This document shows, piece after piece, positions 22,639 through 37,444 of a stretch of DNA of 52,067 bases (position 1 is its first letter; each line of letters begins with the position of its first letter). The notes under the pieces are model-generated. The model saw only the letters and a program-made list of their open reading frames with translations, was not told the DNA's origin and ran no database searches. The stretch comes from Gammaproteobacteria bacterium (lineage in GTDB: Bacteria > Pseudomonadota > Gammaproteobacteria > SZUA-229). Both the position numbers and the translations under genes were made by a program. The stretch is taken from positions 1 through 52,067 of the forward strand of contig JAPHRO010000016.1 in NCBI GenBank assembly GCA_026195895.1. The letters are read 5' to 3'.

Positions 22639-22643
22639 TTTTT

Positions 22644-23966
22644 ATGATATTACCCAAAACGCTATTCGCCAGAACAGTCACCATGATTGCGGCTGTCTCT
22701 ATTGCGTTTTTATTATTTGCTGTCAGTGTGATCGGTTATTTCATGCTAGTACCCGTGGGTAAACAATCCGCAGATGACCTGGCCGCCCTGATGATCTTTA
22801 GCGCACAAACCTGGTCAGCTGCATCGGTCGAGACAAGAACAGAACTTGAGCAGGAATTACTAAATAATTACCGGCTTATGATTGCCAGTAGCCCGCAATT
22901 AAAGCCGGTAAAATTCAAACCCCTGCCTTATTATTACTTTCTGGAATCTTCGCTAAAACAGCGCACCGGACAGGACATGCTGCTTAAAATTTCTCAGGAT
23001 AAAAAAGGTGAAAACTGGTACTGGGTAAATTTACCGGTTAACAATAATACTGTTTCTATAGGCTTTCCAGGCTCACATGTCAACGCACAACCACCACTGG
23101 TATTAGTTCTGTTGCTGGTGGTTGGCGGCCTTGCCACACTGGTCACGGCAGCCGCACTGGTACGACATCTGACAACACCCCTGGAACGATTATCACAAAA
23201 TGCCCTGCGTATTGGTAGCGGTGAAGAACCTGAGCTGATTCCTGAATCCGGCCCGGAAGAAATGCTTAATCTGGCCAGAAGTTTTAATAAAATGGCGGTA
23301 CAGGTCAAGGAACTGTTAACCAATCGCACGACCCTGCTGGCCGGTATATCCCATGACCTTAGAACGCCTCTGGCACGCATTCAATTGGCGCTGGAAATGC
23401 TGCCTGCGGAAACTGACAAAACCCTGGTCGATGGCATACGCGGTGATGTGGAACAGATGAATTGTCTGATTGGACAATTTCTTGAATTAAGCCGTTTACT
23501 TGAAAAGGGTGAGCAACAAATTATTCAGCTACCTGAAATTCTGGAAGATCTGGTTAACTGCGGCAGACGGGGGGGTGCCAATATTCAGTGGCAACCCGCC
23601 GAACCCTGCCAGGTATTCAGTAACCCATTAGCCTTGCGACGTATTATTGTAAATTTGCTGGAAAATGCCGTGCGTTATAGCGAAGGTCAAACGGTCAATG
23701 TTGTTTACGCATGTGAAACCAATAAAGCGATAATAGAGATTATGGATCGCGGTCCAGGCATTCCCGAACATGAGCTGGAAGCGGTTTTCAGACCATTTTA
23801 TCGGCTTGATCAGTCTCGCAATCCGGAAACCGGTGGTACTGGTCTTGGCCTGAGCATCGCCCTGCAACTGGCTGAATTAAATAAGATAACAATACAACTT
23901 TCAGCAAGAGATGGCGGCGGTACGATAGCAACAATATGTATTCCTGGCTCCAGGCAATTACATTAA
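22644..23966 (+). CDS. EnvZ-like sensor histidine kinase
   Basis: 440 residues. TM1 (about 10-33), a periplasmic domain of about 120 residues, and TM2 (about 152-172) are followed by HAMP (RHLTTPLERLSQNALRIGSG), HisKA with His237 in GISHDLRTPLARIQLALEML, and HATPase_c with N box NLLENAVRYS, G1 DRGPGIP and G2 GGTGLGLSIA. The H-box region is very like EnvZ. The pair is co-transcribed with the regulator (5-bp gap). The periplasmic domain differs from EnvZ, so the stimulus need not be osmolarity. Confidence 0.94.
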   Translation: MILPKTLFARTVTMIAAVSIAFLLFAVSVIGYFMLVPVGKQSADDLAALMIFSAQTWSAASVETRTELEQELLNNYRLMIASSPQLKPVKFKPLPYYYFLESSLKQRTGQDMLLKISQDKKGENWYWVNLPVNNNTVSIGFPGSHVNAQPPLVLVLLLVVGGLATLVTAAALVRHLTTPLERLSQNALRIGSGEEPELIPESGPEEMLNLARSFNKMAVQVKELLTNRTTLLAGISHDLRTPLARIQLALEMLPAETDKTLVDGIRGDVEQMNCLIGQFLELSRLLEKGEQQIIQLPEILEDLVNCGRRGGANIQWQPAEPCQVFSNPLALRRIIVNLLENAVRYSEGQTVNVVYACETNKAIIEIMDRGPGIPEHELEAVFRPFYRLDQSRNPETGGTGLGLSIALQLAELNKITIQLSARDGGGTIATICIPGSRQLH

Positions 23967-24049
23967 TATAAAAACCATCAACCAGCAGCTTCTTGTACAA
24001 AACAAACCCCACTGCTATGATCATAAACCTCAACAACAAAACCAGTTTT

Positions 24050-24145
24050 GGAGGGTATAGATGATTGCTGTAACAACCTCCCGGGCATTAAGCGCATAGG
24101 CTTAAAAACTTTCCGCCCGGTTTCCAAACCGGGGCACATCGCCCC
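24050..24145 (+). ncRNA. structured leader RNA with a 12-codon ORF upstream of rsgA
   Basis: Several well-paired elements occur in under 100 bp: GGAGG (24050-24054) with CCTCC (24077-24081); CCGGGC (24081-24086) with GCCCGG (24115-24120), enclosing TTAAGC-gcatag-GCTTAA (24088-24105); GGTT with AACC (24119-24130); and GGGGC-acatc-GCCCC (24131-24145). The first and second stems share bases and could be alternatives. GGAGG is also the ribosome site of a 12-codon ORF (24061-24099, ATG to TAG), so its translation would open the first stem. No U tract directly follows. It could be an attenuator or riboswitch-like leader for rsgA, or a 3' element of the kinase transcript. I do not recognise a known RNA family. 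Confidence 0.4.
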
Positions 24146-24190
24146 TGATGAATAAATCTACCAGACGCATTTTTGGCGCCAGGGGTTCTT

Positions 24191-25231
24191 ATGACTAATT
24201 TTTATTCTTTATCCCAACTGGGATGGCAGGCATTTTTTCAACAACAACTCTCACTCGAAGAATGGGAAGACTGTCCTGCGGCTCGAATTATAGGGCAGGA
24301 AAAATCGACCATTACCGTGTTAACAACTGACGGTAAACAATCCATCGACTTAACACCCGGTATGCCCGTGTTGACCGTAGGCGACTGGATCTTACTCGAC
24401 AAAACCAGACGATTTCATCGCATGTTAGACCGGCTATCTCTATTTTCTCGCAAAGCGGCGGGCACTAAAGTTGCAACTCAGCTGATTGCAGCCAATATCG
24501 ATACCGTATTTGTGGTCTGCTCTCTCAATCAGGACTTTAATCTCAATCGTATTGAGCGATATCTGGCATTGGTCAACGAAGCCAAAGTAGAACCAGTCAT
24601 CATACTCACCAAACTGGATTGCTGTGAAAATCCCGATGATTTCATACAACAGGTTCAGACAATTAACCCGCACCTAATGGTGGCCACTGTTAACAGCCTC
24701 GATCCTGAAAGCGTCAGCAAACTTGAGCCCTGGTGCGTTACCGGTAAAACCGTGGCCTTTCTTGGCTCTTCGGGAGTCGGCAAATCCACGTTAATCAATA
24801 CCCTACTGGGACACGCAGTACAACAAACCAGTGCCATTCGTGAAGACGATGCTAAAGGTCGCCACACCACCACTGGTCGCACGCTACACATGTTACCCTC
24901 GGGCGGTTTATTGCTCGACACACCCGGTATGCGAGAACTACAACTGGCCGATTGCGAACAGGGCATTGGAGATACCTTCTCTGAAATCAGCGAACTGGCT
25001 CGCCAGTGTAAATTCTCAGACTGCCAGCACAAACAGGAACCGGGCTGCGCGGTAAGAGCTGCCATCAACAACGGTACACTGGATGAAAGACGATTGCTGA
25101 ACTATCAGAAACTGCTACGTGAACAGGCTATAAACCGCGAAACACTGGCGGAGAAACGAGCCCGTGACCGTAACCTGGGGAAATTTTATCGTTCTGTGCA
25201 AGAAGCGTCTCAACGCATGAAGAATGAATAA
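24191..25231 (+). CDS. rsgA: ribosome small-subunit biogenesis GTPase RsgA
   Basis: 346 residues from ATG at 24191, preceded by AGGGG; a TTG at 24173 would add six. An OB-fold N-terminal domain is followed by a circularly permuted GTPase: G4 (TKLD) comes before G1 GSSGVGKST (192-200), then G2 (GRHTTTGR) and G3 (DTPGMREL). The zinc knuckle CKFSDCQHKQEPGC has the C-x4-C-x-H-x5-C spacing. RsgA helps mature the decoding centre of the 30S subunit and answers to GTP/ppGpp. The gene stands alone behind the structured leader and ends at a terminator hairpin. Confidence 0.95.
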   Translation: MTNFYSLSQLGWQAFFQQQLSLEEWEDCPAARIIGQEKSTITVLTTDGKQSIDLTPGMPVLTVGDWILLDKTRRFHRMLDRLSLFSRKAAGTKVATQLIAANIDTVFVVCSLNQDFNLNRIERYLALVNEAKVEPVIILTKLDCCENPDDFIQQVQTINPHLMVATVNSLDPESVSKLEPWCVTGKTVAFLGSSGVGKSTLINTLLGHAVQQTSAIREDDAKGRHTTTGRTLHMLPSGGLLLDTPGMRELQLADCEQGIGDTFSEISELARQCKFSDCQHKQEPGCAVRAAINNGTLDERRLLNYQKLLREQAINRETLAEKRARDRNLGKFYRSVQEASQRMKNE

Positions 25232-25335
25232 GGCACTGATTGGTTCAGCCCTGACCGATTAAAGGGCAGCCTCCCCTTTATCATCGGCCTCCCGTATAAA
25301 ATGGCTTATCAGTTTTCACTGGAATTAATAACTAA

Positions 25336-25367
25336 AAATGCCCTGCATTTAAAAATACAGGGCATTT
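25336..25367. terminator. bidirectional terminator between rsgA and the Csp1-like gene
   Basis: AAATGCCCTG pairs perfectly with CAGGGCATTT over 10 bp around a 12-base AT-rich loop, with A and T tracts outside the stem on both sides. It lies between two convergent genes. Confidence 0.8.
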
Positions 25368-25417
25368 ATTTAACTAGCCCGATGAATTATGCAAGCATTA
25401 TTCATGACTGAAATTGA

Positions 25418-25909
25418 TCAGGCCACATACTCCTTGCATGCCTTGATGCAGTCTGCACAGGATTCTGCACAGGCTTTACAGGCCGCATGTTTATCGGCAT
25501 GTTTATCACAGGATTTTTTGCAGTCTTTACAGACATTAATGCAGACTTTCGCAAAATCTTTCAGATGCCTTGAATCATAGGACGCAAGTTGTGATAAAGC
25601 CGTGCAGGTTGCCAGCATTTCCTGAACGGAATCTGCACATTCCGCCATGGATGTATCCTGCATTTTAAACATGTCAATACAATGCTGAATGCAGGTCTGC
25701 CCCGCTTTGACACAGCCAAGTGATGCATCAATAACCCGCTGACGATCAGCAGGCACAGCATGCATATGGTGGTGATCCATGGCCGCGTCAGCCTTATTTG
25801 AAAAGCCAAGACCCGCGGCAGTCGCCATTACCGTGGCGCCCAGTAAAACGTTACGCCGACTTTCAGAAAAATCGGCTTCAGGCTTAAGGTTATTTTTATT
25901 GTCCTGCAT
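25418..25909 (-). CDS. Tat-exported four-helix-bundle copper-storage protein (Csp1-like)
   Basis: 163 residues from ATG at 25909 with AGAGGA five bases upstream. Twin Arg 18-19 in SESRRNVLLG mark a Tat signal, followed by a His-rich mature start (MDHHHMHA). The rest is a predicted four-helix bundle carrying 14 Cys in the spacings of the Csp/DUF326 family (KAGQTCIQHC, KVCINVCKDCKKSC, AACKACAESCADC). In methanotroph Csp1 such cysteines line the bundle core and store many Cu(I) ions. Tat export means folding, and possibly copper loading, may begin in the cytoplasm. It is not next to the copper island at 43-52 kb. Confidence 0.9.
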   Translation of the reverse strand: MQDNKNNLKPEADFSESRRNVLLGATVMATAAGLGFSNKADAAMDHHHMHAVPADRQRVIDASLGCVKAGQTCIQHCIDMFKMQDTSMAECADSVQEMLATCTALSQLASYDSRHLKDFAKVCINVCKDCKKSCDKHADKHAACKACAESCADCIKACKEYVA

Positions 25910-26071
25910 ACTATCCTCTTTATTGTTCAATTATGTTACGAACAAACAAGCCTAGCAGAAATATCTCAATCTACTAATAATCAAAGCAGACGGATGTTCT
26001 ATATGAGATAAAGAAATTCGAATTTTATTTTTTACTGATGGTTTAAGCTATTGCGCTTTTACGCGGAATAC

Positions 26072-26389
26072 TCAGGCATCCCGCAAATCATTAATGATTT
26101 CATTCAGTGTATAAAAACAGCCATTGCGCATGAATCCAGCGATAACACCGGATTTGAGTGATACAGCTTTGCCCAGCTCGTCCCTTTCGGAAATCCAGTA
26201 ATCAGGCAGGCCATCCAGAATATGCACAACTGAGGGCATACCATCTTCATAGGCTGCCAGGTGGGTTTCTTTATTGTGGAGATCCATGAAGGCAGGCATG
26301 AAGCCAAAGCCGGCAGCGCCAAAGATAGTGCTGCTCATTTGATCGTAGGCGCCCTGTTGCTCGGCTAACTGGGACTGTGACATGTACAT
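26072..26389 (-). CDS. hypothetical protein
   Basis: 105 residues from ATG at 26389, with GAAGG upstream. The protein is soluble with no signal. It has a Gln-rich start (SQSQLAEQQGAYDQ), a Gly/Phe-rich hydrophobic stretch (IFGAAGFGFMPAFMDLHN) and a C-terminal part with ILDGLPDYWISERDELGKAVSLKSGVIAGFMRNGCFYTLNEI. I do not recognise the family. It follows the lipoprotein gene of the Mla-type cluster by 64 bp on the same strand, so it may be the last gene of that transcript. Confidence 0.65.
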   Translation of the reverse strand: MYMSQSQLAEQQGAYDQMSSTIFGAAGFGFMPAFMDLHNKETHLAAYEDGMPSVVHILDGLPDYWISERDELGKAVSLKSGVIAGFMRNGCFYTLNEIINDLRDA

Positions 26390-26453
26390 ATAAACCCGCC
26401 TTCATGTTCTTGCATATTAACTATGGCGGTAGGTTTACTGAATTCTTTAGTGA

Positions 26454-27095
26454 CTATTTGTTATTTATTGCTAAATCGCTAAAAAAGGCAGCCAGCACCT
26501 GATCCAGCGCCCTGCCAAAAGTAGCCACGGTGTCGTGCATGCTCTGAGATGGCACTGCCAGCCGAGCCAGATACTGCCGAGACCAGTCTTTATCTGGATT
26601 TGAGCCATAGCGGACACCCAGCTTCAGTTTCACTAACACCTCACTGTCGCTACCATTAACCAGCCGCTCGAAGCCGAGTATGCGGCTGGTCAGGCTGACG
26701 TCCATCTTGCTCGGCGACACTGTGTTAGCGTTGGCTGAATTTATACCCAGCCCTTCTAATGCCGAGTGAATATGTTTTCTAATCAATATAGCCGGCGGCT
26801 CGACCCAGTAATGATAATGGTAGCGTCCGAGTTCCAGCGGAGTCGCCGACTCCACGTAAAGTATGCTGCGCTCATGGTACAAGCCATCAGCCTGCACCGG
26901 TTCAACCAGCAAGCTGGCGATATTATTTTTAAGCTTACCAGCAATCGCAGTATTTATGCCTGCCACGGGTAACCGATAATAATGATCGGCGGGTATTTCG
27001 CCGCCAGAGAAACTGCATGCTGACAGCAACAAACTGCTTAACAGGGTCACGCCCTTTATCAGACGGGTTAGCTTTTTATTTAGTATTAATTTCAT
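26454..27095 (-). CDS. ABC-transport auxiliary lipoprotein (PqiC/ABC_trans_aux type)
   Basis: 213 residues. The lipoprotein signal has its lipobox at LLSAC (about residue 27), followed by the family start DHYYRLPV and the core ERSILYVESATPLELGRYHYHYWVEPPAILIRKHIHSAL. These proteins accompany MCE/Mla-type lipid transporters and link the inner-membrane complex to the outer membrane. The ATG overlaps the MlaD-like stop (ATGA, 27092-27095), so the two are translationally coupled. It replaces the soluble MlaC of the E. coli system. Confidence 0.88.
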   Translation of the reverse strand: MKLILNKKLTRLIKGVTLLSSLLLSACSFSGGEIPADHYYRLPVAGINTAIAGKLKNNIASLLVEPVQADGLYHERSILYVESATPLELGRYHYHYWVEPPAILIRKHIHSALEGLGINSANANTVSPSKMDVSLTSRILGFERLVNGSDSEVLVKLKLGVRYGSNPDKDWSRQYLARLAVPSQSMHDTVATFGRALDQVLAAFFSDLAINNK

Positions 27096-27961
27096 TTTGC
27101 TGGCACCGCATTGTCAACTGGAGGCTTGCTACCCAGGATGGCTCCCGGATTATCTCTTAACTGTCGGCTCAATTCGTTCATGTTACGACTGGAAGCATCC
27201 AGGTTATAAACTATAGAATTGATGTGCGATGAAATCACATCCATGGATTTTTTTAAGGCAAGCACGCTGTGTCGAATATCTTCATCATTATCAGCCACCA
27301 GGGCACTGGAACGTTTTAATAATTCATCCAGTTGATGATTGACCTTATCAAATCCACTGGCCAGTTTGGCCAGGCTCTTGCTGGCATCGTCGGCATTTAA
27401 AAACATATTGTCGATATGCTGGATATTTTCATCATCCAGCATGGTTTCGATCTGGCTGGCGCTATGATTCAATTTTTTTAATAAATTAGAAATATCGCCG
27501 GCCATGTTAGGCACAAAGTTATCCAGTTCGTTACCAATGGAACTGGCCAGCGCCATCATATCCACCGCTTCGCGACTGGCAATTAAGTCACCGGGCTGCA
27601 GTCTATTTTTAGATTGTCCTTCGGTAATTTCGATTTGTTTATCGGCAATAATGCCGGGCATGGCAATTTCAGCAATACTGTCTGCAGGAATGGGCCAGCC
27701 GCCTTTTATGGACAATTGCATTTTGTAGCGCGTTCTACTGCCACCAAATACCGGTTCGACACTATTGACCTGTCCAATTTGATAACCTTCATAAGTTACT
27801 GCTGCGCCATCTTTAATGCCAGTTATTTTATCAAACTCAACGTAGTACACTTCGGCCCCGGACTGCTGACCGGTAATTCTGTACAACATGGCAAATAACA
27901 ACAGCAATGTTGCTATCACAAACACGCCAACCATCAGGTAATTGATATTATCTTTTTTCAT
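27092..27961 (-). CDS. MlaD-like MCE-domain protein
   Basis: 289 residues. One TM helix (about 8-28, YLMVGVFVIATLLLLFAML) anchors a periplasmic MCE domain (about 38-115: VEFDKITGIKDGAAVTYEGYQIGQVNSVEP ... IAEIAMPGIIADKQIEITEG). A long helical tail follows (LLKKLNHSASQIETMLDD, LDELLKRSSALVADNDE), ending in a Pro-containing linker. MCE proteins form hexameric rings that guide lipids between membranes. The tail is longer than in E. coli MlaD (183 residues) and could span part of the periplasm, which fits the absence of an MlaC gene. Confidence 0.92.
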   Translation of the reverse strand: MKKDNINYLMVGVFVIATLLLLFAMLYRITGQQSGAEVYYVEFDKITGIKDGAAVTYEGYQIGQVNSVEPVFGGSRTRYKMQLSIKGGWPIPADSIAEIAMPGIIADKQIEITEGQSKNRLQPGDLIASREAVDMMALASSIGNELDNFVPNMAGDISNLLKKLNHSASQIETMLDDENIQHIDNMFLNADDASKSLAKLASGFDKVNHQLDELLKRSSALVADNDEDIRHSVLALKKSMDVISSHINSIVYNLDASSRNMNELSRQLRDNPGAILGSKPPVDNAVPAK

Positions 27962-27985
27962 ATATATTTATTATCCTGCATTTCT

Positions 27986-28843
27986 TTAATCGGGCAGACT
28001 GCCTTTAATATTGCGCCCGGTTAACCGGCCCATATATTCATCCACATCGACCGCATCCTGGCGGGGTTTTCGATTAAGTAAATTATGGATGCGTTCGTTG
28101 CCACTATTGCGCACTTCATCAACCGTACCACACATTAGAATTTTTCCTCGGTCCAGCACTGTAATTCGGTCGGCAATTTTAAATGCGCTATCCAGTTCAT
28201 GGGTAACTACAACGATGGACATATTCATCGCATCACGTAAACGTAAAATCAATTCATCCAGTTCTGCTGCAACAACGGGATCAAGCCCCGCTGAAGGCTC
28301 ATCAAAAAACAATAATTTTGGATCCATAATAATGGCCCTTGCCAGAGCGGCGCGCTTTATCATACCGCCGGATAACTGGGCTGGCATCAAATCTTCAAAG
28401 CCTGCCAGATTGACCACTTCCAGTTTCATGCGGCTCATAATGCGCATGGTGTTTTCATCCAGCCTGGTATGTTCTCGTAATGGCAATTGCGTATTTTCCG
28501 CTACTGTCATCGAGCCAAACAATGCGCCGCCCTGGAATGCCACCCCCATTTGTTTGCGCATTTCATACATTTCCTGCGCACTCATCTGAGTAATATCTTT
28601 ACCCAGCAAACTGACCGTGCCTGATGTCGGTGTATTTAATCCCAGCAGAAAACGTAACAGGGTACTTTTTCCTGAACCACTGCCACCCATGATCACCATG
28701 ATTTCACCTTTGTTTACGGTGAAATTAATATCATCCAGGATCAGCTTATCATCGTAGTGAGTAACCAGATTTTTTACATCAATCACAACATCGGGCGCTA
28801 CCTGGTGTGGCAAATTATTTTCGACCTGAGCTGCTGTATTCAT
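27986..28843 (-). CDS. MlaF-like ABC transporter ATPase
   Basis: 285 residues with the complete ABC set: Walker A GGSGSGKST, a Q loop (MGVAFQGGALFGSMTV), signature LSGGMIKRAALARA, Walker B LLFFDEPSAGLDP and an H-loop His in VVVTHELDSAF. The phrasing, especially FQGGALF and LSGGM, is that of MlaF/Ttg2A lipid-transport ATPases. The C-terminal extension (HNLLNRKPRQDAVDVDEYMGRL) is longer than usual; in E. coli the MlaF C-terminus handshakes with a second MlaF and contacts MlaB. It lies between the permease and MCE genes with short gaps of 13 and 24 bp. Confidence 0.94.
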   Translation of the reverse strand: MNTAAQVENNLPHQVAPDVVIDVKNLVTHYDDKLILDDINFTVNKGEIMVIMGGSGSGKSTLLRFLLGLNTPTSGTVSLLGKDITQMSAQEMYEMRKQMGVAFQGGALFGSMTVAENTQLPLREHTRLDENTMRIMSRMKLEVVNLAGFEDLMPAQLSGGMIKRAALARAIIMDPKLLFFDEPSAGLDPVVAAELDELILRLRDAMNMSIVVVTHELDSAFKIADRITVLDRGKILMCGTVDEVRNSGNERIHNLLNRKPRQDAVDVDEYMGRLTGRNIKGSLPD

Positions 28844-28856
28844 GATGCTGTATTGA

Positions 28857-29645
28857 TTACCGGGTTAGAAAAAAAGTAAAAATCATATCCGCCACAATAA
28901 TATAGCTGATGGACAGAACAACGGAACGGGTTGTTGAACGACCAACCCCCTCGGAACCACCGGTAACTTTAAACCCGTTACTCACCGAAACCAGTACAAT
29001 AATAATGGCAAATACGATGCTTTTAGAAACTCCCTGTGCCACATCATTAATACTGAGCACTTCAAAGCTTCTGTTCATATAAGTGGCAACCGTCATATTG
29101 AGTTCGAATGAGGTATAAACAGCACCGCCTAGCATCCCCAGGAAATCACCAATCACCGTTAATAAAGGTAAAACCAGCATCATGGCAATTAATATGGGGG
29201 CCGCCAGATAACGTACCGGATTAATACCAATCACACGCAGGGCATCGATTTCCTGCGACTCTTTCATGGTGCCGATTCTTGCGGTGATAGCAGAACCGGA
29301 ACGTCCAGCGACAATGATGCCAATAATCAATGCAGAAAACTCACGCGTGACGGATACAGCAATACCGGTAACCACCTGCGATTGCGCACCATAGGGCTTC
29401 AGCGTTTCCAGCCCCTGCAGGGCCAGCATCATACCAACGGAAAAACATAAAATACTGGCGATGGGCACGGCCTTCACCCCAATGCTCATCGCCTCATGAA
29501 AAATATGCGCCAGACGTACCGATTGATTCCGAAATTTTCCCAGAAAAAACCATTCCAGTGATTCAACCAGCAACATGAAAGCATAGCCAACTTCCTCAAT
29601 GGCATTAAGAGATAGTTTGCCGACATGTGAAATAGCTTTCTTCAT
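28857..29645 (-). CDS. MlaE-like lipid ABC transporter permease
   Basis: 262 residues with five or six hydrophobic helices and the MlaE family core: an interfacial N-terminal helix, then GMMLALQGLETLKPYGAQSQVVTGIAVSVTREFSALIIGIIVAGRSGSAITARIGTMKESQEIDALRVIGINPVRYLAAP. This EIDAL segment is the coupling helix for the ATPase. The final helices include SIVFAIIIVLVSVSNGFKVTGGSEGVGRSTTRSVVLSIS. It transports phospholipids together with the MlaF and MlaD homologues. Its ATG overlaps the STAS gene stop by one base, tying it closely to the regulatory genes upstream. Confidence 0.94.
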   Translation of the reverse strand: MKKAISHVGKLSLNAIEEVGYAFMLLVESLEWFFLGKFRNQSVRLAHIFHEAMSIGVKAVPIASILCFSVGMMLALQGLETLKPYGAQSQVVTGIAVSVTREFSALIIGIIVAGRSGSAITARIGTMKESQEIDALRVIGINPVRYLAAPILIAMMLVLPLLTVIGDFLGMLGGAVYTSFELNMTVATYMNRSFEVLSINDVAQGVSKSIVFAIIIVLVSVSNGFKVTGGSEGVGRSTTRSVVLSISYIIVADMIFTFFLTR

Positions 29646-29968
29646 TACAGATCGACATCATCAATTGAGGCATATATTGGAAACACCTTATCCAGCCTGG
29701 CCAGTTGTAAAACCTGCAGGGCTGCTTTGCTAACACCTAATAATGCAAACTGCAGCTGTTGGCCACGCGCGGTCTGAAAACCTTCAACCAGACTGGCCAC
29801 ACCTGAACTATCAATATATTCAACGGCGGACAAATCAATCAGCAAGTGATTATTTTTTTTCAAACATTTTAAAATCTGCTCCCGCGCCTGGGGTGAACAA
29901 TTCAGATCCACCTCCCCGGTTAACGAAATGACAGAAAATTTCCCGTGTTCATGTACCGGATATTTCAT
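29645..29968 (-). CDS. STAS-domain protein (anti-sigma antagonist / MlaB-like)
   Basis: 107 residues, a single STAS domain: SVISLTGEVDLNCSPQAREQILKCL, LIDLSAVEYIDSSGVASLVEGF and ALLGVSKAALQVLQLARLDKVFPIY. The DSSG motif holds the Ser that RsbW-type kinases phosphorylate in SpoIIAA/RsbV proteins. In E. coli, MlaB is also a single STAS domain and binds MlaF to enable transport. This gene lies exactly between an RsbW-like kinase (zero-base gap) and the MlaE permease (one-base overlap), so it could be both the kinase substrate and the transporter subunit. Confidence 0.9.
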   Translation of the reverse strand: MKYPVHEHGKFSVISLTGEVDLNCSPQAREQILKCLKKNNHLLIDLSAVEYIDSSGVASLVEGFQTARGQQLQFALLGVSKAALQVLQLARLDKVFPIYASIDDVDL

Positions 29969-30433
29969 TTATTCGTAATCCTTAGTATTGATACTGTCGC
30001 AAACGATGCCGCAGTCAGTATCAGTTTCAATATTCTTACGCATTTCCAGCAAATTACCCTCACCATCCAGGCCGTCTTTATATTCAACCTGATCCATCAC
30101 CTGGTGAATAAGATGCACGCCCAGTCCTCCGGGTCGGATATCATCCAGATCTCGCGACTTTATGCTTGATCTGTCTACCTGAATGCCAAAATCATAAATC
30201 CGGATAATTAACTCCTGCTTATCTTTCCAGAATTCTAAAATGACTTCGCCGTCATCATTATTCTGATACGCATGCTGAATCACATTCATACAGGCCTCGT
30301 TGATTGACATCACCAGGCAGTCAAGATTGCTCTGATTACAGCCTTGCTCAATGGCTAACTGACGCACGAGTCTGCGAACGGCTTTTAGCTTATCGGCACG
30401 TGATAAAAAATGTATGCGTTCAAGTTGTTCCAT
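29969..30433 (-). CDS. RsbW/SpoIIAB-like serine kinase (HATPase_c_2)
   Basis: 154 residues, a stand-alone GHKL ATPase of the anti-sigma type: N box SINEACMNVIQHAY, G1 around RIYDFGIQVD, G2 RPGGLGVHLIHQVMDQVEY. RsbW proteins phosphorylate a STAS partner on Ser and, when the partner is phosphorylated, bind another target, classically a sigma factor. No sigma factor gene is in the cluster. The gene is flanked by the phosphatase (two-base gap) and the STAS protein (no gap), which makes a complete partner-switch cassette. Confidence 0.9.
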   Translation of the reverse strand: MEQLERIHFLSRADKLKAVRRLVRQLAIEQGCNQSNLDCLVMSINEACMNVIQHAYQNNDDGEVILEFWKDKQELIIRIYDFGIQVDRSSIKSRDLDDIRPGGLGVHLIHQVMDQVEYKDGLDGEGNLLEMRKNIETDTDCGIVCDSINTKDYE

Positions 30434-30435
30434 AG

Positions 30436-32139
30436 TTACTGTTTTTCCAGCAACAACAAAGTAACATCATCCCGAAACGGAACGGTGGAATCGTTAAATC
30501 GATCCACAATTTTTTCAATGCGTTGCAGCGGCGTTAAACCCGCTTCCATGGTGGCGATGGTTTTGAATAAGCCACTCATTTCCAGCATTTCATTTTCAGC
30601 AACATATCCCTCGGTAACACCATCGGAAAACATATATAAACTCTGGTCAGCAAGATCCAGTTCAAACTCGGGAAATTCCGCTTCACTCAATACGCCTAGC
30701 GGCGGTGCCTGCGCATCCAGTTCTCGCGCCAGTCCATCAGGAGAAAATAATAATGCTGGCGGATTACCTGCATTCACCATTCTTAGCATGCCTGACTTTG
30801 GACAATAAAGACCCGCGATCATAGTAACAAACATGCCATGAATAGACGTTTCACACAATTCTATATTTATTTGCGACATCAGTTCACCGGGATCATGGAT
30901 GCGTTTACCCAGGCAACGAAACAGACTGCTGGTTTTTGCCATTAATAAAGCAGCATTAACACCCTTCCCCGAAACGTCACCCAGATTAAAATATATTCGA
31001 CCGTCGGGTAAACTAAAGTAATCATAAAAATCACCGGACAAATCCCTGGCAGAAATATTGATGCCAACAATGGGAAATTTTTTATCCATCAGCGGGGGCA
31101 ATAAACTTTTCTGAATTTCTCTGGCCAATCCCAGATCGCGATTTAATTCAGCGGCCAGTCGATCTCTCTCATCCAGCGCCTGCTCAAGCCGCATGGTAAG
31201 TTCCTGAAAGTTGATATTATCTTCATTCAGTTTGATATTGGCCTGGAACAATATCTGCGAAAACTCAATATGGCCTTTGACTTTTATGCCCAGCACCAGA
31301 GCCGTTAAATCAACTTCATCGGGAATCGCGGCCAGTAATTCTTCGGTGCGATAGGGTTCCATTTCAAAATTTTCAGTCAGGATCTGGCGACAGCGATTGA
31401 TAACAAAACTTTTATCCAGTGCGGTGTACACGGCTGACATCCAGTCAGCGCAGTGTAAGACTTTGCACAGTTGCTCATCGAAGAATTCAAGCTGAGCGGT
31501 ATTACAAGAGTGGTGATTGCAGATAGGCCTGGCAATTTCATCGAGCATGCCCCAGCGTTCGCAAAACAGCTCGCTGGCCTGATCATGGGTCATATTAAAT
31601 ACGTTACGTTCCATACTGTAACGCGCTTCCGGCTCACGCTTTCTAAACTCGGCCCATAAGGCGCCCTTATTTGGGCTGAGTAAAAACAGCAGTAAAAACC
31701 CAATGTCCTGCATTAAGCCTGCGGTAAAGCATCGGCTACCATCAAGACCAATAGTTTCCCCGATCATGCGCGCACTCACCGCACGGCGTAATGAATCTTC
31801 CCAGAATTCCTGTTGATCAAGACCGCGAATTTTATATTGGCCAAAAGTTTTATAAATCACCAGACAAATCATTAACAAACAGATGCGCTCGAATCCGGCC
31901 AGCTGAACGGCCTGATAAATCGAAGATACTTTGCTGGTCAGGTTGAAATGATCGGAATTAATAACGTTCAGCAGCGATTCAAAGAACTGAGGATAATCCG
32001 CCTCAATAGATAATACGTCCTGTTCATCAATCGTCTCCAGGCCATGCAACTCAAGAAACCGGCGCGCAAGCTCTGGAATCAGCGGGATATTGGCAGCATT
32101 AATATGGTCGTCAAGATTGATGTAAGACACGTTTCGCAT
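30436..32139 (-). CDS. HDOD - PP2C (SpoIIE/RsbU-type) phosphatase
   Basis: 567 residues. An HDOD domain (about 10-215) is visible from IPLIPELARRFLELHG, IYQAVQLAGFERICLLMICLVIY and the GLMQDIGFLLLFLL helix; its HD metal residues are not preserved, as is normal for HDOD. A coiled linker (about 300-345, LTMRLEQALDERDRLAAELNRDLGLAREIQKSLLP) leads to the SpoIIE phosphatase domain (about 350-567) with the metal-binding Asp residues in SGDFYDYF, LGDVSGKG, FSDGVTEG and RDDVTLL. It should dephosphorylate the phospho-STAS protein made by the kinase next door, with HDOD as the signal input. It is the first gene of the lipid-transport run. Confidence 0.92.
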   Translation of the reverse strand: MRNVSYINLDDHINAANIPLIPELARRFLELHGLETIDEQDVLSIEADYPQFFESLLNVINSDHFNLTSKVSSIYQAVQLAGFERICLLMICLVIYKTFGQYKIRGLDQQEFWEDSLRRAVSARMIGETIGLDGSRCFTAGLMQDIGFLLLFLLSPNKGALWAEFRKREPEARYSMERNVFNMTHDQASELFCERWGMLDEIARPICNHHSCNTAQLEFFDEQLCKVLHCADWMSAVYTALDKSFVINRCRQILTENFEMEPYRTEELLAAIPDEVDLTALVLGIKVKGHIEFSQILFQANIKLNEDNINFQELTMRLEQALDERDRLAAELNRDLGLAREIQKSLLPPLMDKKFPIVGINISARDLSGDFYDYFSLPDGRIYFNLGDVSGKGVNAALLMAKTSSLFRCLGKRIHDPGELMSQINIELCETSIHGMFVTMIAGLYCPKSGMLRMVNAGNPPALLFSPDGLARELDAQAPPLGVLSEAEFPEFELDLADQSLYMFSDGVTEGYVAENEMLEMSGLFKTIATMEAGLTPLQRIEKIVDRFNDSTVPFRDDVTLLLLEKQ

Positions 32140-32260
32140 TCAATTTATTGAGGAGTATCAGAAACTCCGTAAACAGGTTTAGCTATGCCCAAATTAAGCC
32201 TGAAATATTTTTATCTATTGAGTATAGTCTCAAGCTACGTAGTTAGCCTGAAATTTCCTG

Positions 32261-33175
32261 ATGATTCACACACTTATGCAGATGTTTGCGCTGATCGGTC
32301 TGGGCTTGCTATGGTCCTGGTTCAATCCTGGTCGAATGGACAGCGCACTGATCAGGAAAGTATTGACTGACACGGTATATTTTATATTCCTGCCGGCGCT
32401 GGTGTTTAATGTACTCTGGCAGGCTGATCTGGGACTGGATTCCGCGAAAATTGCTTTCAGTGCTGCCGTCGGCGTGCTGAGCGCACTGTTTTTAAGCTGG
32501 TTTATCTGTAAACGCTGTCGTACCCACGGCCCAGTCACCGGAGCCGTGCTGCTTGCCGCCAGCTTTCCCAATGCCACCTATCTCGGTTATCCGCTACTAA
32601 TTCATACTTTAGGCGACTGGGCCGGGCCGGTCGCCATTCAATATGACCTGTTTGCCTGCACCCCGATTCTACTCACTGTCGGCATCATGCTGGCGGCACA
32701 TTTTGGTGGCAAACAGGCAGCCCGCCACAATCCCTTCATTGAACTACTGAAAGTACCACCACTGATAGCGGCTGTGATAGCGACCAGCCTGAATTTACTG
32801 GGTGTACAACCTGTTGAAGGCATCACCGGCTTACTGGCCATAATGGGCTCGGCGGTGGTGCCCATTATGCTATTTGCCATTGGCCTGGCGCTGAAACAGG
32901 GGTTTTCTGAAACGCGCCATCTACCAACTGTTATTCCGGTGAGCATTATTCAATTGATACTGATGCCGTTGATTGTACTGGGCACCAGTATTTTAATCGG
33001 CCTCGATGGTAATTTGCGTACGGCAGTGGTACTTGAGGCAGCCATGCCCAGTATGGCACTGGGTGTCGTGCTGTGTGATCGCTACGGGCTGAATACCGGT
33101 ATCTATGCCTCGGCAGTGACACTGACGACCCTGCTTAGTCTGATCACACTTCCCCTCTGGTATGGCTGGCTATAG
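32261..33175 (+). CDS. AEC-family (auxin efflux carrier-like) membrane transporter
   Basis: 304 residues, with two halves of four to five TM helices each. Conserved family features are the early FALIGLGLLWSWFNP segment, the SFPNATYLGYPL motif in the first repeat, and AMPSMALGVVLCDRYGLNTGIYASAVTLTTLLSLITLPLWY in the second. Bacterial members export or import organic acids such as malate or malonate. It is divergent from the HDOD phosphatase gene across 121 bp, with no sign of a shared function. The ribosome site before ATG 32261 is weak. Confidence 0.9.
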   Translation: MIHTLMQMFALIGLGLLWSWFNPGRMDSALIRKVLTDTVYFIFLPALVFNVLWQADLGLDSAKIAFSAAVGVLSALFLSWFICKRCRTHGPVTGAVLLAASFPNATYLGYPLLIHTLGDWAGPVAIQYDLFACTPILLTVGIMLAAHFGGKQAARHNPFIELLKVPPLIAAVIATSLNLLGVQPVEGITGLLAIMGSAVVPIMLFAIGLALKQGFSETRHLPTVIPVSIIQLILMPLIVLGTSILIGLDGNLRTAVVLEAAMPSMALGVVLCDRYGLNTGIYASAVTLTTLLSLITLPLWYGWL

Positions 33176-33558
33176 CGCAAAAAAATCAGCTCAATGTAAT
33201 GTTTGGTTACGGTTGATTTAGCACTGGTTGTCTTACTAGCAAGCCATATTCACTGCAAATTTTTCTGTTATAACTACACTGAAAATTAACGCTATTCAGC
33301 ACGCAACACCAATATAAATGATCATCATGCCCAGACAGTGCTGTCCAGACAAAATCCTGGCGCTATGCCGCAGCCAGAGTTAAAGAAAAACCCATCCAGA
33401 ATGATCTGCTAAAACAGAGCACAAAAGCCAGCATTTCATTGTTTGCGATCCTGTGTAATTGTGCTTTCTGCAATAGCCTGCTGCAATAGAGCCACTGAAC
33501 TACAGATCGTACGACATACTCTATACTTTGACTGTTTAAATAACCAAAAAGAGTATCT
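33176..33558. other. intergenic region; no gene seen
   Basis: This 383-bp stretch lies between the AEC transporter and the MoxR gene, both on the plus strand. I found no coding frame, clear terminator hairpin or strong palindrome. The promoter of the MoxR-DUF58-transglutaminase operon should be here. Confidence 0.5.
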
Positions 33559-34506
33559 ATGCAAAAGCAGACTCATTTGCCTGTTGAGCTTATTCAGCAA
33601 TCCCTGCAGCAGGCGGTAAAAAATATTTCCCATATTATTCTTGGTAAACAACGCCAGATTCAACTGGCTCTGACCTGTTTACTGGCCAATGGACATTTGC
33701 TAATCGAAGACATGCCGGGTGTTGGCAAGACGACCCTGGCACTGGCCATAGCAAAAACCTTCGGGCTGGATTTTCAACGCGTGCAGTTTACCAGCGATTT
33801 GTTACCCGCCGATGTGCTGGGTATATCGATTTACGATATCGAATCACGGCAGTTTAATTTTCATTCGGGCCCGGTATTTACTCAGGTACTGCTCGCCGAT
33901 GAAATCAATCGTTCGACGCCGAAAACACAAAGTGCTCTGCTGGAAGCGATGGAAGAACATCAGGTGACTCAGGATGGTACGACACGGCCACTACCCAAAC
34001 CTTTTTTTGTCATTGCCACCCAGAACCCAACAGAGCAGGTGGGCACGTTTCCGTTACCCGAGTCGCAACTCGATCGTTTCCTGATGCGCATTGAGATCGG
34101 CTATCCTGACCAGAATGCTGAACGTGAATTACTCAAGGGCACGGATCGACGCCAGGCAATCAGGCAAATAGCATCGGTACTGGACGCCAGTGAACTGATT
34201 GAGCTACAGCGCGCGGTCGACGAGGTGCATGTTTCTAAAGCCATTGTAGATTATTTACTGGCCCTGATTCGCAGTAGCCGACTGTCACCCTGGTTTTCTT
34301 CCGGCCTGTCACCCCGAGCAGGTCTGGCCTTACAAAAATGTGCCCAGGCCTGGGCGCTGCTGCATGGCCGCGACCATGTGTTACCCGAAGATGTACAGCA
34401 GGTTATTCCATCCGTGGCGGCACATCGTCTACAAATTAATCCAGATAATCAGCACGAATCCATTGACGAACTCATTATCAAACTCATTAAGCAGGTACCG
34501 GTTTAG
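33559..34506 (+). CDS. MoxR-family AAA+ ATPase
   Basis: 315 residues with ATG after AAAAAGAG. Walker A is MPGVGKTT (52-59), Walker B LLADEINRSTPKTQSALLEAMEE, sensor 1 IATQNPTEQVGTFPLPESQLDRF, followed by the MoxR lid (LSPRAGLALQKCAQAWALLHGRDHVLPEDVQQV). MoxR proteins are chaperone-like ATPases that work with DUF58/VWA proteins. The next two genes are DUF58 and a transglutaminase, a three-gene unit widely seen in bacteria and linked to envelope or exopolysaccharide stress functions. The stop overlaps the possible GTG start of the next gene. Confidence 0.93.
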   Translation: MQKQTHLPVELIQQSLQQAVKNISHIILGKQRQIQLALTCLLANGHLLIEDMPGVGKTTLALAIAKTFGLDFQRVQFTSDLLPADVLGISIYDIESRQFNFHSGPVFTQVLLADEINRSTPKTQSALLEAMEEHQVTQDGTTRPLPKPFFVIATQNPTEQVGTFPLPESQLDRFLMRIEIGYPDQNAERELLKGTDRRQAIRQIASVLDASELIELQRAVDEVHVSKAIVDYLLALIRSSRLSPWFSSGLSPRAGLALQKCAQAWALLHGRDHVLPEDVQQVIPSVAAHRLQINPDNQHESIDELIIKLIKQVPV

Positions 34507-34508
34507 TG

Positions 34509-35489
34509 ATGCAGGAGCTGCCTCTTATCCCGGGATTTCTGGCTCGCTATATCGAACGCTGGGCAGTAAAAAGATTACCTGACACAGACTATCAGGCCAC
34601 TATCGTTCGCCAGCGGCTGTATATACTCCCCACCCGGCAAGGCCTGCTGTTCACTACAGTGTTAGGCACTATTTTGTTAGGCGCCATTAATTATGAAAAC
34701 AGCCTGACTTATATGCTGTGTTTTCTGTTTGCTTCGATTGGTTTTCTGGGCATGATTTATACCCATCAAAATCTTAATCATTTACGACTGGGCGCCGCCA
34801 GTGCCAAAGCTGTTTTTGCCGGACAGGCAGCGCAATTCCCACTAAGCATCAGCAGTGTAAAACAACATTCGCATTACAATATCCGCATCCAGTGTAAAGC
34901 AACAGATGCTATTTGTGCGCATCTTGAAGACACTGAGACAGAATCACTGCTAATGCTTCCTGTCACTACTAAAAGACGTGGTTACATTCAGCTGGGGAGA
35001 ATAAAAATTTATACTGAATTTCCCTTCGGGTTATTTCATGCATGGTGCTGGGTCGAATTGAATGCACAGGCAGTTGTCTATCCAGAACCCGATGCTCATC
35101 CACCCCAATATACCCATGGCGGACGACAACACGGCCATCAGATGACGCAACAGGAAGGCTATGATGATTTTGCCGGCATTCGCAAATATCGAAAAGGCGA
35201 TGCGCCAAATCATCTTGCCTGGAAAGCCATTGCCAGAACGGGTGACTTACAAACAAAACAGTTCTATGCAGAAGCGGCTGACGAGATATGGCTTGACTGG
35301 CACCAGTTAGCTGACGACATGGACGTAGAAAAACGCCTGTCGGTTCTTTGTCGCTGGATTCTGGATGCCGATAAACAGGGGATTAAATTCGGACTCATAA
35401 TACCCGGCAAAAATATTTCTCCTGGTACTGGCCGGCAACATCGTCATGTGTGTCTCAAAGCACTGGCCTTATTCGGCATCGAAGCATGA
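34509..35489 (+). CDS. DUF58-domain membrane protein
   Basis: 326 residues from ATG at 34509; a GTG at 34506 is also possible. Two TM helices (about 35-80) are followed by a cytoplasmic or periplasmic DUF58/VWA-like part with the family motif GYDDFAGIRKYRKGDAPNHLAWKAIARTGDLQTKQF. The family partners MoxR ATPases. The C-terminal VWA-like fold is visible in DEIWLDWHQL but the full metal site is not. The stop overlaps the next start by four bases (ATGA), indicating translational coupling. Confidence 0.9.
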   Translation: MQELPLIPGFLARYIERWAVKRLPDTDYQATIVRQRLYILPTRQGLLFTTVLGTILLGAINYENSLTYMLCFLFASIGFLGMIYTHQNLNHLRLGAASAKAVFAGQAAQFPLSISSVKQHSHYNIRIQCKATDAICAHLEDTETESLLMLPVTTKRRGYIQLGRIKIYTEFPFGLFHAWCWVELNAQAVVYPEPDAHPPQYTHGGRQHGHQMTQQEGYDDFAGIRKYRKGDAPNHLAWKAIARTGDLQTKQFYAEAADEIWLDWHQLADDMDVEKRLSVLCRWILDADKQGIKFGLIIPGKNISPGTGRQHRHVCLKALALFGIEA

Positions 35490-37444
35490 CTCGATTCGAT
35501 TATATAGCTAAAGATCCTGTTTCCTGGGTCATCCTATCGCTGGCACTGGTGCTTATGCCGCATGCCCCTCGCTTACCCGCCTGGACGCTATTTGTCATTC
35601 CGCTGCTTTTTTTATGGCGTCTGGCTGCAATAAAAAAACCACAACGTCTACCGCGAAAATGGCTGCTGTTTATCATTGTCATTCTGTCGTCGTTTGCAAT
35701 GCTAGTGCATTACGGAACACTGTTTGGAAAAACAGCGGGTACCGCTATTCTTGCCGTGCTGCTGGCAGTGAAATTACTGGAAAGTCGTAAGCGTAGAGAT
35801 TACATGCTGTTAATTGCATTGAGCTTCTTCATCATAGTAACCAACTTTTTATTTTCCCAGGATATCCCGACGCTTGCTTTTATGCTGATTACCGTGGTCA
35901 TTCTGGTGATGAGCCTGATATACATTAATCAGGAATCTGCGCCATTAAAACTGCGCCAACGTTTCAAAATGTCGCTAACCATCGTGTTGCAGGCTTTACC
36001 CATGATGTTAGTTATGTTTATTTTATTTCCACGTATTTCGGGACCACTCTGGCAATTACCCGATGATGCCCATACTGCTCGCAGTGGCTTGAGTGATACA
36101 ATGTCGCCCGGCAATATCGCCCAGTTAATAAACTCGAATGACATAGCATTCAGGGTCAAATTTGAAAATCAGCAGCCATCTCAAAATCAACTTTACTGGC
36201 GTGCCCATGTATTGTGGTATTTTGATGGCCGTAGTTGGGAGCAGGGAAAATTAAATCCGAATCCTGATCCGGTGCTGGAAACTTTTAATGCGCCTGTCGA
36301 ATACACAGTGACCCTGGAACCGCATTTCAAAAAATGGCTGTTTGCCCTGGATATGCCTGGCGAGGCACCCGTAAAAAGTCACTACAACAATAATTATTTA
36401 CTCCGTGCCGATAAAAAAATTACTTCTCTGTATCAATATCAGGCAACATCATTTCTAAATTACCGGGCAGGTAATATTTTATCGCCCTGGGAAGAAAGCG
36501 CTGGATTAAAATTGCCAGTGCATCAAAATCCACGAACAGTTGCATTAGGCAGGCAATGGCGAAAACAATTTAATCAGCCGGTCGACATCGTTGCCCACGC
36601 GCTTAAACAGTTTAATCAACAAAACTATGTGTATACCCTGCGTCCCCCATTGACGCCTGGGCACGATTCAGTCGATCAGTTTTTATTCAACACTCGACGG
36701 GGGTTTTGTGAACACTATGCCGGCAGCTTCGCGGTATTGATGCGTGCTGCCGGTATCCCCACGCGGATTATTTTGGGCTATCAGGGTGGCGCATTTAATC
36801 CATTGAATGATGTGCTCACTGTCAGGCAATCCGATGCCCATGCCTGGACCGAGGTCTGGCTAGAAAACCAGGGCTGGGTACGCATAGATCCAACAGCCGC
36901 TATTGCACCGAGCCGTATTGAACAAAATTTGAATGCAGCCCTGCCGAAAAATGAAACGCGGCCACTGCACATGCATCTCGATATGGGCGTTTTGAAACAA
37001 CTTAGATTTTACTGGGAGTTGATGGATAATAACTGGAACCAATGGGTCATTGCTTATGATCCCGAGTTACAACAGGAATTTTTATCATCATTGTTGAATA
37101 AAAAAATTAATTTCGCCGATATCGTTTATCTGCTGGTGTTTACCCTCACTATAGTTACTCTTGCTATCGCGGTTATGATATTGAAACCATTTCAACGAAC
37201 AACATCTGATCCGACCCAGCTCGCCTATGAACAATTTTGCCGCAAACTGGCCCGTAGTGGCATCTGTAGAGAACCCTGTGAAGGTCCTGTGGATTTTTCA
37301 CTGCGTGCAATGCAGGCCCATCCTCAGCAAAAAGACAGCATAAAATTAATCAGCCGTATTTATATAAATTTAAGATTTAGATCCAGCAATAATAAAAAAC
37401 AGCTTGAAAAATTAAGACACTTAATTAGAAAACTGAAGCTATAG
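35486..37444 (+). CDS. TgpA-like membrane transglutaminase
   Basis: 652 residues from ATG at 35486, overlapping the DUF58 stop. Five or six TM helices (about 15-180) are followed by a periplasmic transglutaminase-like domain with the catalytic triad in canonical spacing: Cys408 in RGFCEHYAGSFAVLMRAAG, His452 in SDAHAWTEVW, Asp468 in RIDPTAA. One more TM (about 545-570) precedes a cytoplasmic helical tail (QLAYEQFCRKLARSGI). The layout matches P. aeruginosa TgpA, an essential enzyme. Substrate is unknown. A bidirectional terminator follows. Confidence 0.93.
   Translation: MTRFDYIAKDPVSWVILSLALVLMPHAPRLPAWTLFVIPLLFLWRLAAIKKPQRLPRKWLLFIIVILSSFAMLVHYGTLFGKTAGTAILAVLLAVKLLESRKRRDYMLLIALSFFIIVTNFLFSQDIPTLAFMLITVVILVMSLIYINQESAPLKLRQRFKMSLTIVLQALPMMLVMFILFPRISGPLWQLPDDAHTARSGLSDTMSPGNIAQLINSNDIAFRVKFENQQPSQNQLYWRAHVLWYFDGRSWEQGKLNPNPDPVLETFNAPVEYTVTLEPHFKKWLFALDMPGEAPVKSHYNNNYLLRADKKITSLYQYQATSFLNYRAGNILSPWEESAGLKLPVHQNPRTVALGRQWRKQFNQPVDIVAHALKQFNQQNYVYTLRPPLTPGHDSVDQFLFNTRRGFCEHYAGSFAVLMRAAGIPTRIILGYQGGAFNPLNDVLTVRQSDAHAWTEVWLENQGWVRIDPTAAIAPSRIEQNLNAALPKNETRPLHMHLDMGVLKQLRFYWELMDNNWNQWVIAYDPELQQEFLSSLLNKKINFADIVYLLVFTLTIVTLAIAVMILKPFQRTTSDPTQLAYEQFCRKLARSGICREPCEGPVDFSLRAMQAHPQQKDSIKLISRIYINLRFRSSNNKKQLEKLRHLIRKLKL

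Follow-up and report, generated by a model that had tools for sequence, protein, structure and literature searches.

Does a kinase/phosphatase partner switch control a bacterial lipid transporter? The question arises at an operon in a 52,067-nucleotide stretch of Gammaproteobacteria DNA (lineage SZUA-229; assembly GCA_026195895.1, contig JAPHRO010000016.1), called the window here. In this operon, genes for a SpoIIE phosphatase, an RsbW kinase, and a STAS protein (together, the trio) run directly into genes for an MlaE permease, an MlaF ATPase, an MlaD-like protein, and a PqiC-like lipoprotein. Here, we report a computational survey of this operon and its relatives, and propose that the STAS protein is probably a phospho-switchable MlaB, which would support MlaF when unphosphorylated and would not when phosphorylated.

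The switch is tied to the transporter because the kinase co-occurs with one MlaF subtype, minimal loci hold the trio and MlaF, MlaB is absent from the Mla-type operons concerned, and the trio is associated with two permeases. The gene linkage, the co-occurrence, the invariance of catalytic and substrate residues, and the replacement of MlaB in relatives are observed directly. The initial annotation of the locus had supposed that phosphorylation switches the transporter on and off, with an HDOD domain as sensor input; action on the transporter is well supported by these findings, and HDOD proved not to be essential.

Gene content of the operon

The seven minus-strand genes (Table 1) were confirmed, with the domains first assigned to them, by open reading frames (ORFs), Pfam, and NCBIfam. 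From gene 1 to gene 7, they lie 2, 0, −1, 13, 24, and −4 base pairs (bp) apart, the −1 being the overlap of the STAS gene with mlaE that had been noticed initially, as had the serine of the STAS motif (D53-S54-S55-G56).

Table 1. Genes of the operon, from gene 1 to gene 7
Feature	Coordinates	Strand	Basis
HDOD-SpoIIE (PP2C) phosphatase, 567 amino acids (aa)	30436-32139	minus	Pfam SpoIIE 8.6e-39, HDOD 2.8e-31
RsbW/SpoIIAB-like serine kinase, 154 aa	29969-30433	minus	Pfam HATPase_c_2 7.1e-27
STAS protein, 107 aa, predicted switchable MlaB equivalent	29645-29968	minus	Pfam STAS 2e-20
MlaE-family permease, Mpc-like subtype	28857-29645	minus	Pfam MlaE 2.1e-67; tree
MlaF ATPase, trio-linked subtype	27986-28843	minus	Pfam ABC_tran 7.1e-34; RsbW co-occurrence
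Long single-MCE-domain protein (MlaD/MpcD-like), 289 aa	27092-27961	minus	Pfam MlaD 1.7e-13
PqiC-like lipoprotein	26454-27095	minus	ABC_trans_aux 7.9e-06; position conserved in relatives

The first three genes have the parts of an Rsb/Spo module, namely, a PP2C domain with its aspartates, a GHKL kinase with N-box and glycine-box residues, and a STAS serine after an aspartate. The STAS protein exceeds the NCBIfam anti-anti-sigma superfamily cut-off (TIGR00377; 76.8 versus 53.45) and stays below that of the MlaB model mlaB_1 (NF033618; 28.4 versus 90), and the kinase stays below the RsbW equivalog cut-offs (NF003144, 58.3 versus 145; TIGR01924, 53.6 versus 155.05). The transporter half has the MlaE-like permease, long MCE protein, and PqiC-like lipoprotein (the last only at the Pfam cut-off) of the Mpc system; the STAS-permease fusion of Mpc was not found, the window STAS protein being encoded by a separate gene. 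The lipoprotein is the weakest assignment of the seven, since its ABC_trans_aux score (26.0 bits) equals the Pfam cut-off (26); it scored 17.2 against the NCBIfam pqiC model (cut-off, 200). By Pfam, the window operon holds neither the MlaC nor the MlaA of a canonical Mla system, and the PqiC-like lipoprotein stands there instead. In agreement with the initial annotation, no sigma factor was found among eight window proteins scanned with Pfam; the other ORFs at 22000-37000 were judged by reading, and a genome-wide search was not made. Scans for promoters (10 sites versus 14.5 expected) and terminator-like sites (11 versus 6.5, mostly within genes) were uninformative.

Recurrence of the gene order

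The window RsbW was searched against 54 genomes of the order; 14 genomes matched, and 14 regions were fetched. The trio is followed by MlaE in 12 regions, 10 of them holding the whole operon and two (L032 and L035) ending inside MlaE at a contig end. Three of the 12 (from two genomes) have an RsbW 29-32% identical to that of the window and other flanking genes, and because the order recurs even in such distant loci, the arrangement is not due to chance. MlaF is split into two ORFs in L031 (genome G027; 3564-4367) by a frameshift or assembly error, and the lipoprotein of L039 is an ORF in the right place without a BLAST match. L041 and L042 hold a different SpoIIE-RsbW pair and no mla genes.

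Scanning genome contigs with the window STAS protein gave 38 loci, in 31 of which (L050-L080) RsbW directly precedes STAS; MlaE or MlaF lies downstream in 29 of these 31, the exceptions being L051 and L055. Some redundancy is included (L050 and L056 repeat L030 and L111; L063 and L064 share one STAS protein). The remaining seven loci (L081-L087) match STAS weakly and carry no mla genes; in L082, PP2C, STAS, and RsbW genes are present in a different order, with weak matches. Phosphatase and kinase form a single fusion protein in L057, L062, L074, and L076-L080. One locus, L076, comes from a named isolate (Insolitispirillum peregrinum DSM 11589), and nearly all others come from metagenome bins. 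Three bins (L054, L062, and L066) are labelled Klebsiella pneumoniae, a label that looks doubtful because their operons fall among the ones from uncultured Gammaproteobacteria.

At class level, the window MlaE matched 42 of 369 genomes (E ≤ 1e-50), and RsbW and STAS stand directly upstream of MlaE in 35 of the 40 new regions fetched. Among the exceptions, L125 stops at a contig end (in L188, from the same genome, RsbW-STAS stands beside an MlaE start), the MlaE of L127 carries a fused STAS domain, the trio of the L126 genome is located on a different contig (L135), and L099 and L101, from one genus, are without the trio. The window RsbW (E ≤ 1e-14) matched 54 of the 369 genomes, with two loci cut by contig ends. 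In all 52 assessable loci, STAS directly follows RsbW, and in 48 the next gene after STAS is MlaE or MlaF (one of the 48, G232, lies at a contig end), the other four being G094, G166, G351, and G378. The smallest module consists of HDOD-PP2C, RsbW, STAS, and MlaF, neither MlaE nor MlaD being present in the region fetched; it occurs in G073, G216, and G345 (L172, L177, and L184; two families), and also in G232 (L180) up to the contig end.

Co-occurrence with one MlaF subtype

The sequences matched by the window MlaF form two groups split by a gap, one at E ≤ 1e-100 (trio-type MlaF) and one at E ≤ 1e-79. Among the 369 class genomes, 52 have both RsbW (E ≤ 1e-14) and trio-type MlaF, 4 have MlaF only, 2 have RsbW only, and 311 have neither (Fisher p 5.9e-56, uncorrected for kinship); 29 families have both. 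The initial annotation had proposed searching genomes for this gene order and co-occurrence, and both were thus found. In two of the MlaF-only genomes, the trio is present below the RsbW threshold (G118, L121) or MlaF lies at a contig edge (G062, L211). In three (G094, G166, and G378; not G351) of the four genomes whose trio or RsbW-STAS pair stands unattached, another part of the genome has a trio-type MlaF heading an MlaFED operon with MlaC, and the same holds for the genomes of L051 and L055 and for G230, whose trio is cut. In a search of 397 genomes of the phylum, eight matched the window MlaF at E ≤ 1e-85, three of them from other classes; one of these (G435) has the trio in an operon like that of the window (L207). 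On these comparisons, the MlaF ATPase is the common partner of the trio.

Two operon types and the place of MlaB

Two operon types were found. Type 1, as in the window, is trio-MlaE-MlaF-MlaD-PqiC-like; type 2 joins the trio to MlaF, MlaE, MlaD, MlaC, and mostly MlaA, the genes of the Mla pathway. Among 16 type-2 loci, MlaA is present in 14 and an upstream phosphatase in 12 (one fragmented, one weak), and MlaF is convergent, not in line, in four (L135, L176, L182, and L187).

In canonical loci, MlaB follows MlaC in 15 of the 15 that reach that far, according to a hidden Markov model trained on 12 of those 15 (five further canonical loci were too short). Beyond the STAS protein of the trio, the model found no MlaB in any of the 16 trio-linked Mla-type operons (L181 holds only 295 bp after MlaC), nor in the searched regions of 11 STAS-less operons with trio-type MlaF. 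In these relatives, and not in the window itself, the trio STAS protein therefore occupies the place of MlaB in an Mla operon. Seven type-2 genomes (G421-G427) have the trio-linked MlaE as their sole MlaE, and within them no STAS match lies in a frame shorter than 169 aa besides that of the trio. Their other STAS matches lie in frames of 511-628 aa and about 170 aa, plus 264 and 228 aa (G423 and G427); the frame of about 170 aa, fetched in four of the seven (G422, G424, G425, and G426), adjoins a gene with a PP2C match there, a pair that by eye is RssC/RssB-like.

The two types were compared by mean identity, independently of any tree (39 type-1 and 16 type-2 loci). Between types, PP2C (39.9%), RsbW (37.6%), STAS (48.5%), and MlaF (61.6%) are near their within-type values, whereas MlaE is 32.0% identical between types versus 58.1 and 60.8% within them. 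Type-2 MlaE joins canonical MlaE in the tree (Shimodaira-Hasegawa-like approximate likelihood ratio test [SH-aLRT], 100), and a single trio clade for MlaE was rejected (p 0.005, quick tree). A quick MlaF tree of 84 rows placed trio-linked MlaFs in one group (SH-aLRT, 96); its search was poor, since a better score was obtained for the alternative in which type-2 MlaFs group with canonical ones. In a careful tree restricted to 57 rows (27 of the 84 were dropped: 4 long-branched fused-type, 5 canonical, and 18 type-1 rows), the trio group received 98/97 from a bootstrap that had not converged.

The window MlaF carries its own C-terminal tail (DVDEYMGRLTG), and the MlaF tail of canonical operons is of the FHYP kind; the FHYP motif was found in none of 96 trio-type MlaFs versus 17 of 34 others. 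A loose tail motif was also tried as a marker and dropped as not specific, being present in all 96 trio-type MlaFs and in 14 of the 34 others.

Two further sets of genes were seen beside type-1 operons. A CHASE2-adenylate cyclase gene (about 748 aa; two Pfam confirmed) sometimes follows the operon (L054, L055, L057, L059, L060, L063, L064, L093, L094, L097, L098, L100, L105, L122, L123, and L211), in L055 directly after the trio with no mla genes between, and suggests a link to cAMP. A second MlaE-MlaD-MlaA set, with no adjoining MlaF seen, follows the operon in L088 (10176-12338), L089 (30-800), and L160, and looks as if two permeases shared one ATPase.

Conserved residues and structural models

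Among 77 unique trio proteins (80 loci minus 3 duplicates), STAS D53, S54, and S55 and RsbW R20, E46, N50, D81, G102, G103, and G105 are invariant; the RsbW G1 box reads DxA in 73, DxG in 3, and DxS in 1. The PP2C residues D370, D388, D506, and D557, which we take to be metal ligands, are invariant in all 82 unique domains kept after a length and score filter. We take S54 to be equivalent both to the phosphorylated position of SpoIIAA/RsbV and to T52 of E. coli MlaB. The initial annotation had treated the DSSG serine as a mark of regulation, a weak argument, and as proof it is ruled out on its own, because canonical MlaBs often read DSAG or DSGG at this motif. HDOD as the defining sensor is likewise ruled out: it is present in 17 of 33 phosphatases of the class regions, and GAF takes its place in both of the HDOD-less phosphatases that were scanned with Pfam.

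By Foldseek, the window kinase is folded like SpoIIAB (1th8), the STAS protein is folded like RsbV/SpoIIAA, and MlaF matches E. coli MlaF. AlphaFold2 (AF2) models of natural in-frame read-through chains were obtained for the window RsbW-STAS (predicted local distance difference test, 91.5; predicted template modeling score [pTM], 0.86) and for the STAS-MlaF of a relative, L066 (87.9 and 0.78; whole-chain scores, and not the window pair). Both pTM values exceed our own rough estimate for a pair of domains of unknown mutual placement, which suggests that the domains are placed fairly confidently relative to each other.

Other mla, STAS, and kinase genes of the source genome

The source genome (84 contigs, 99% complete) has three MlaE genes: that of the window, one in a canonical mlaFEDC operon with MlaB and another MlaF type (contig C34), and a third adjoined by an ATPase-like gene (C52). 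A second dedicated MlaB had been named initially as a finding that would speak against the model. One is present on C34, and on its face the objection applies; the model is nevertheless not refuted, because this MlaB sits in its own canonical operon with the other MlaF type. Three frames exceed the PF13581 cut-off, the window RsbW (165-aa frame) being the only match in a short frame (the others are in 563- and 342-aa frames). Further STAS matches are four in frames of 523-723 aa (presumably SulP length), the MlaB of C34, and one on C40 in a 111-aa frame; this last lies near the 563-aa frame, which has an HATPase match, and we take the two to be an HsbA/HsbR-like pair.

Proposed mechanism and alternatives

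In E. coli, MlaF is retained in the complex by MlaB, whose residue T52 is located at the interface with MlaF; the T52E substitution lowers MlaF pull-down (PMC7367683; statements on cited papers refer to the parts that were available). Because kinase and phosphatase genes are adjacent, and given the behavior of T52, the arrangement is most simply read as one in which S54 phosphorylation disables the MlaB equivalent and dephosphorylation restores it. Phosphorylation, its direction, the binding, and the signal, all of which we infer, would operate as follows. Unphosphorylated STAS would bind the helical face of trio-type MlaF, leaving the ATPase assembled and active. RsbW would phosphorylate S54, weakening MlaF binding and turning transport off, by analogy with T52E, and may in addition hold STAS back in its unphosphorylated form. 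The SpoIIE phosphatase, under the control of HDOD in the window or of GAF in some relatives, would strip the phosphate and turn transport on. More tentatively, one STAS protein could be a cell-wide switch that acts in trans on every trio-type MlaF, also in Mla operons lacking an MlaB, so that a single kinase/phosphatase pair might set both Mpc-like and Mla-like traffic; in favor of this, G330, G347, G289, and G167 hold a trio-linked Mpc-like operon and a second trio-type MlaFED-MlaC with no STAS near, and G325/G087 hold the second MlaE-MlaD-MlaA set with no adjoining MlaF seen.

Several results weigh against the phospho-switchable MlaB. E. coli MlaB T52A abolishes ATPase activity and is still bound (PMC5016091), and a bind/release switch alone may therefore be too simple. 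No phosphatase lies beside RsbW in L105, L185, L186, L067, L069, L070, L075, and L210. No RsbW was found at E ≤ 1e-14 in the MlaF-only genomes G117 and G278; G117 and, likewise without RsbW at this threshold, G341 have a type-1 operon with neither trio nor STAS beside MlaE, so STAS is not strictly obligate for this subtype. G351 has RsbW and STAS and no trio-type MlaF. In the other two genomes from outside the class, G508 (L209; MlaE-F-D-PqiC) and G468 (L208; MlaF only), the fetched regions hold no RsbW or STAS, which counts against a strict trio-MlaF link. An approximately unbiased test leaves the alternative grouping of MlaF by permease type unrejected (p 0.28). A simple module-swap history for MlaF is weakened; it is MlaF, and not the permease, that accompanies the trio, be the cause a swap or a shared constraint.

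Three other explanations were weighed. RsbW might bind and inhibit MlaF directly, as it does sigma factors, with STAS a classical antagonist that frees MlaF, and not an MlaB. Gene linkage and co-occurrence fit this equally, the transporter loci of G117 and G341 include no STAS, and Veillonella has MlaEFD and no MlaB (PMC10665443). We nonetheless consider it rather unlikely: E. coli MlaF assembly needs MlaB (PMC7367683), and since the Mla-type operons with trio-type MlaF are without MlaB, they would miss a STAS partner unless the trio supplied it; the L066 STAS-MlaF chain (AF2 pTM, 0.78) also argues for such a partner, although it bears on the STAS pairing only. That the trio is an independent switch, with a sigma factor, a cyclase, or another output, and merely co-transcribed with a transporter that it leaves untouched, is improbable. 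Such a switch would explain the trios or RsbW-STAS pairs without an adjoining MCE gene (L051, L055, G094, G166, G351, and G378), the adenylate cyclase genes often found downstream, and the close MlaFs with no trio nearby (G508 and G468), but not the co-occurrence with one MlaF subtype over 29 families, also in trans, the association with two divergent permeases, or MlaE or MlaF after STAS in 48 of 52 loci.

It is very improbable that STAS is a constitutive, structural MlaB and that the kinase and phosphatase act on something else. The serine often found at this position in canonical MlaBs would suit that explanation, whereas the unbroken RsbW-STAS order (52 of 52 loci), the invariance of D53-S54-S55 and the kinase residues (77 of 77), and the model of the RsbW-STAS chain (AF2 pTM, 0.86) speak against it. 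If the switchable MlaB is correct, partner switching would control the motor of an ABC transporter after translation, and outer-membrane lipid traffic would be a fast, signal-driven process in many Gammaproteobacteria and, in at least one instance (L207), beyond them in a second class of the phylum.

Flanking genes

A 105-aa gene after the operon (26072-26389, minus strand) has no Pfam or NCBIfam match; it is kept after the operon in the close relatives L029-L031, L033, L034, L036, and L037 (47-66% identity) and has no match in L038-L040. Those three distant loci have a different flank, with two signalling genes upstream of the operon (L038, 3105-4522; L039, 3504-4888; L040, 8307-9706) that by eye encode an FHA protein and a REC-HATPase protein. 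At 25418-25930 of the window is a small Cys-rich protein with an N-terminal signal-like stretch, which by eye resembles a copper-storage four-helix protein.

Comparison with known systems

The initial annotation knew of no Mla system regulated in this way, and this held: among the titles and abstracts listed from the open-access literature (preprints and closed journals lay outside its scope), none showed a kinase or phosphatase acting on MlaB or on an MCE transporter. In a term search of a survey of MCE neighborhoods (PMC5561183), no word that starts with kinase or phosphatase occurs. The parts are known, an Mpc-like transporter and an Rsb/Spo- and SiaABC-like switch; the combination was not seen in that literature.

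The phosphatase, kinase, and substrate belong to the same three families as RsbU-RsbW-RsbV and SpoIIE-SpoIIAB-SpoIIAA, and the kinase and STAS folds match. The output of these classical partner switches is a sigma factor; here, the linked gene encodes an ABC ATPase.

E. coli MlaFEDB likewise has a STAS subunit on an ABC ATPase, with T52 at the place of S54; papers in eLife (2016 and 2020) suggested phosphoregulation of MlaB at T52, and their available parts name no kinase or phosphatase for it (PMC5016091 and PMC7367683). In the operons described here, genes for a dedicated kinase, phosphatase, and substrate accompany the ATPase gene, and the question of MlaB phosphorylation is therefore directly testable in them. 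The canonical operons of this survey differ from them in the MlaB after MlaC and the FHYP-kind MlaF tail.

The chimeric Mla-Pqi system Mpc of Brucella abortus (EMBO J 2025, PMC12436622) shares the MlaE-like permease, MlaF-like ATPase, long single MCE protein, PqiC-like lipoprotein, and MlaB-homologous STAS domain. There, STAS is fused to the permease and a kinase or phosphatase goes unmentioned in the available part of the paper, whereas the window STAS protein is free beside RsbW and SpoIIE. In Pseudomonas aeruginosa SiaABC, a PP2C/kinase pair acts on a STAS-like protein via a partner switch, as proposed here, but SiaC is phosphorylated on threonine and the system is connected to a di-guanylate cyclase, SiaD, in place of a transporter (PMC7647112).

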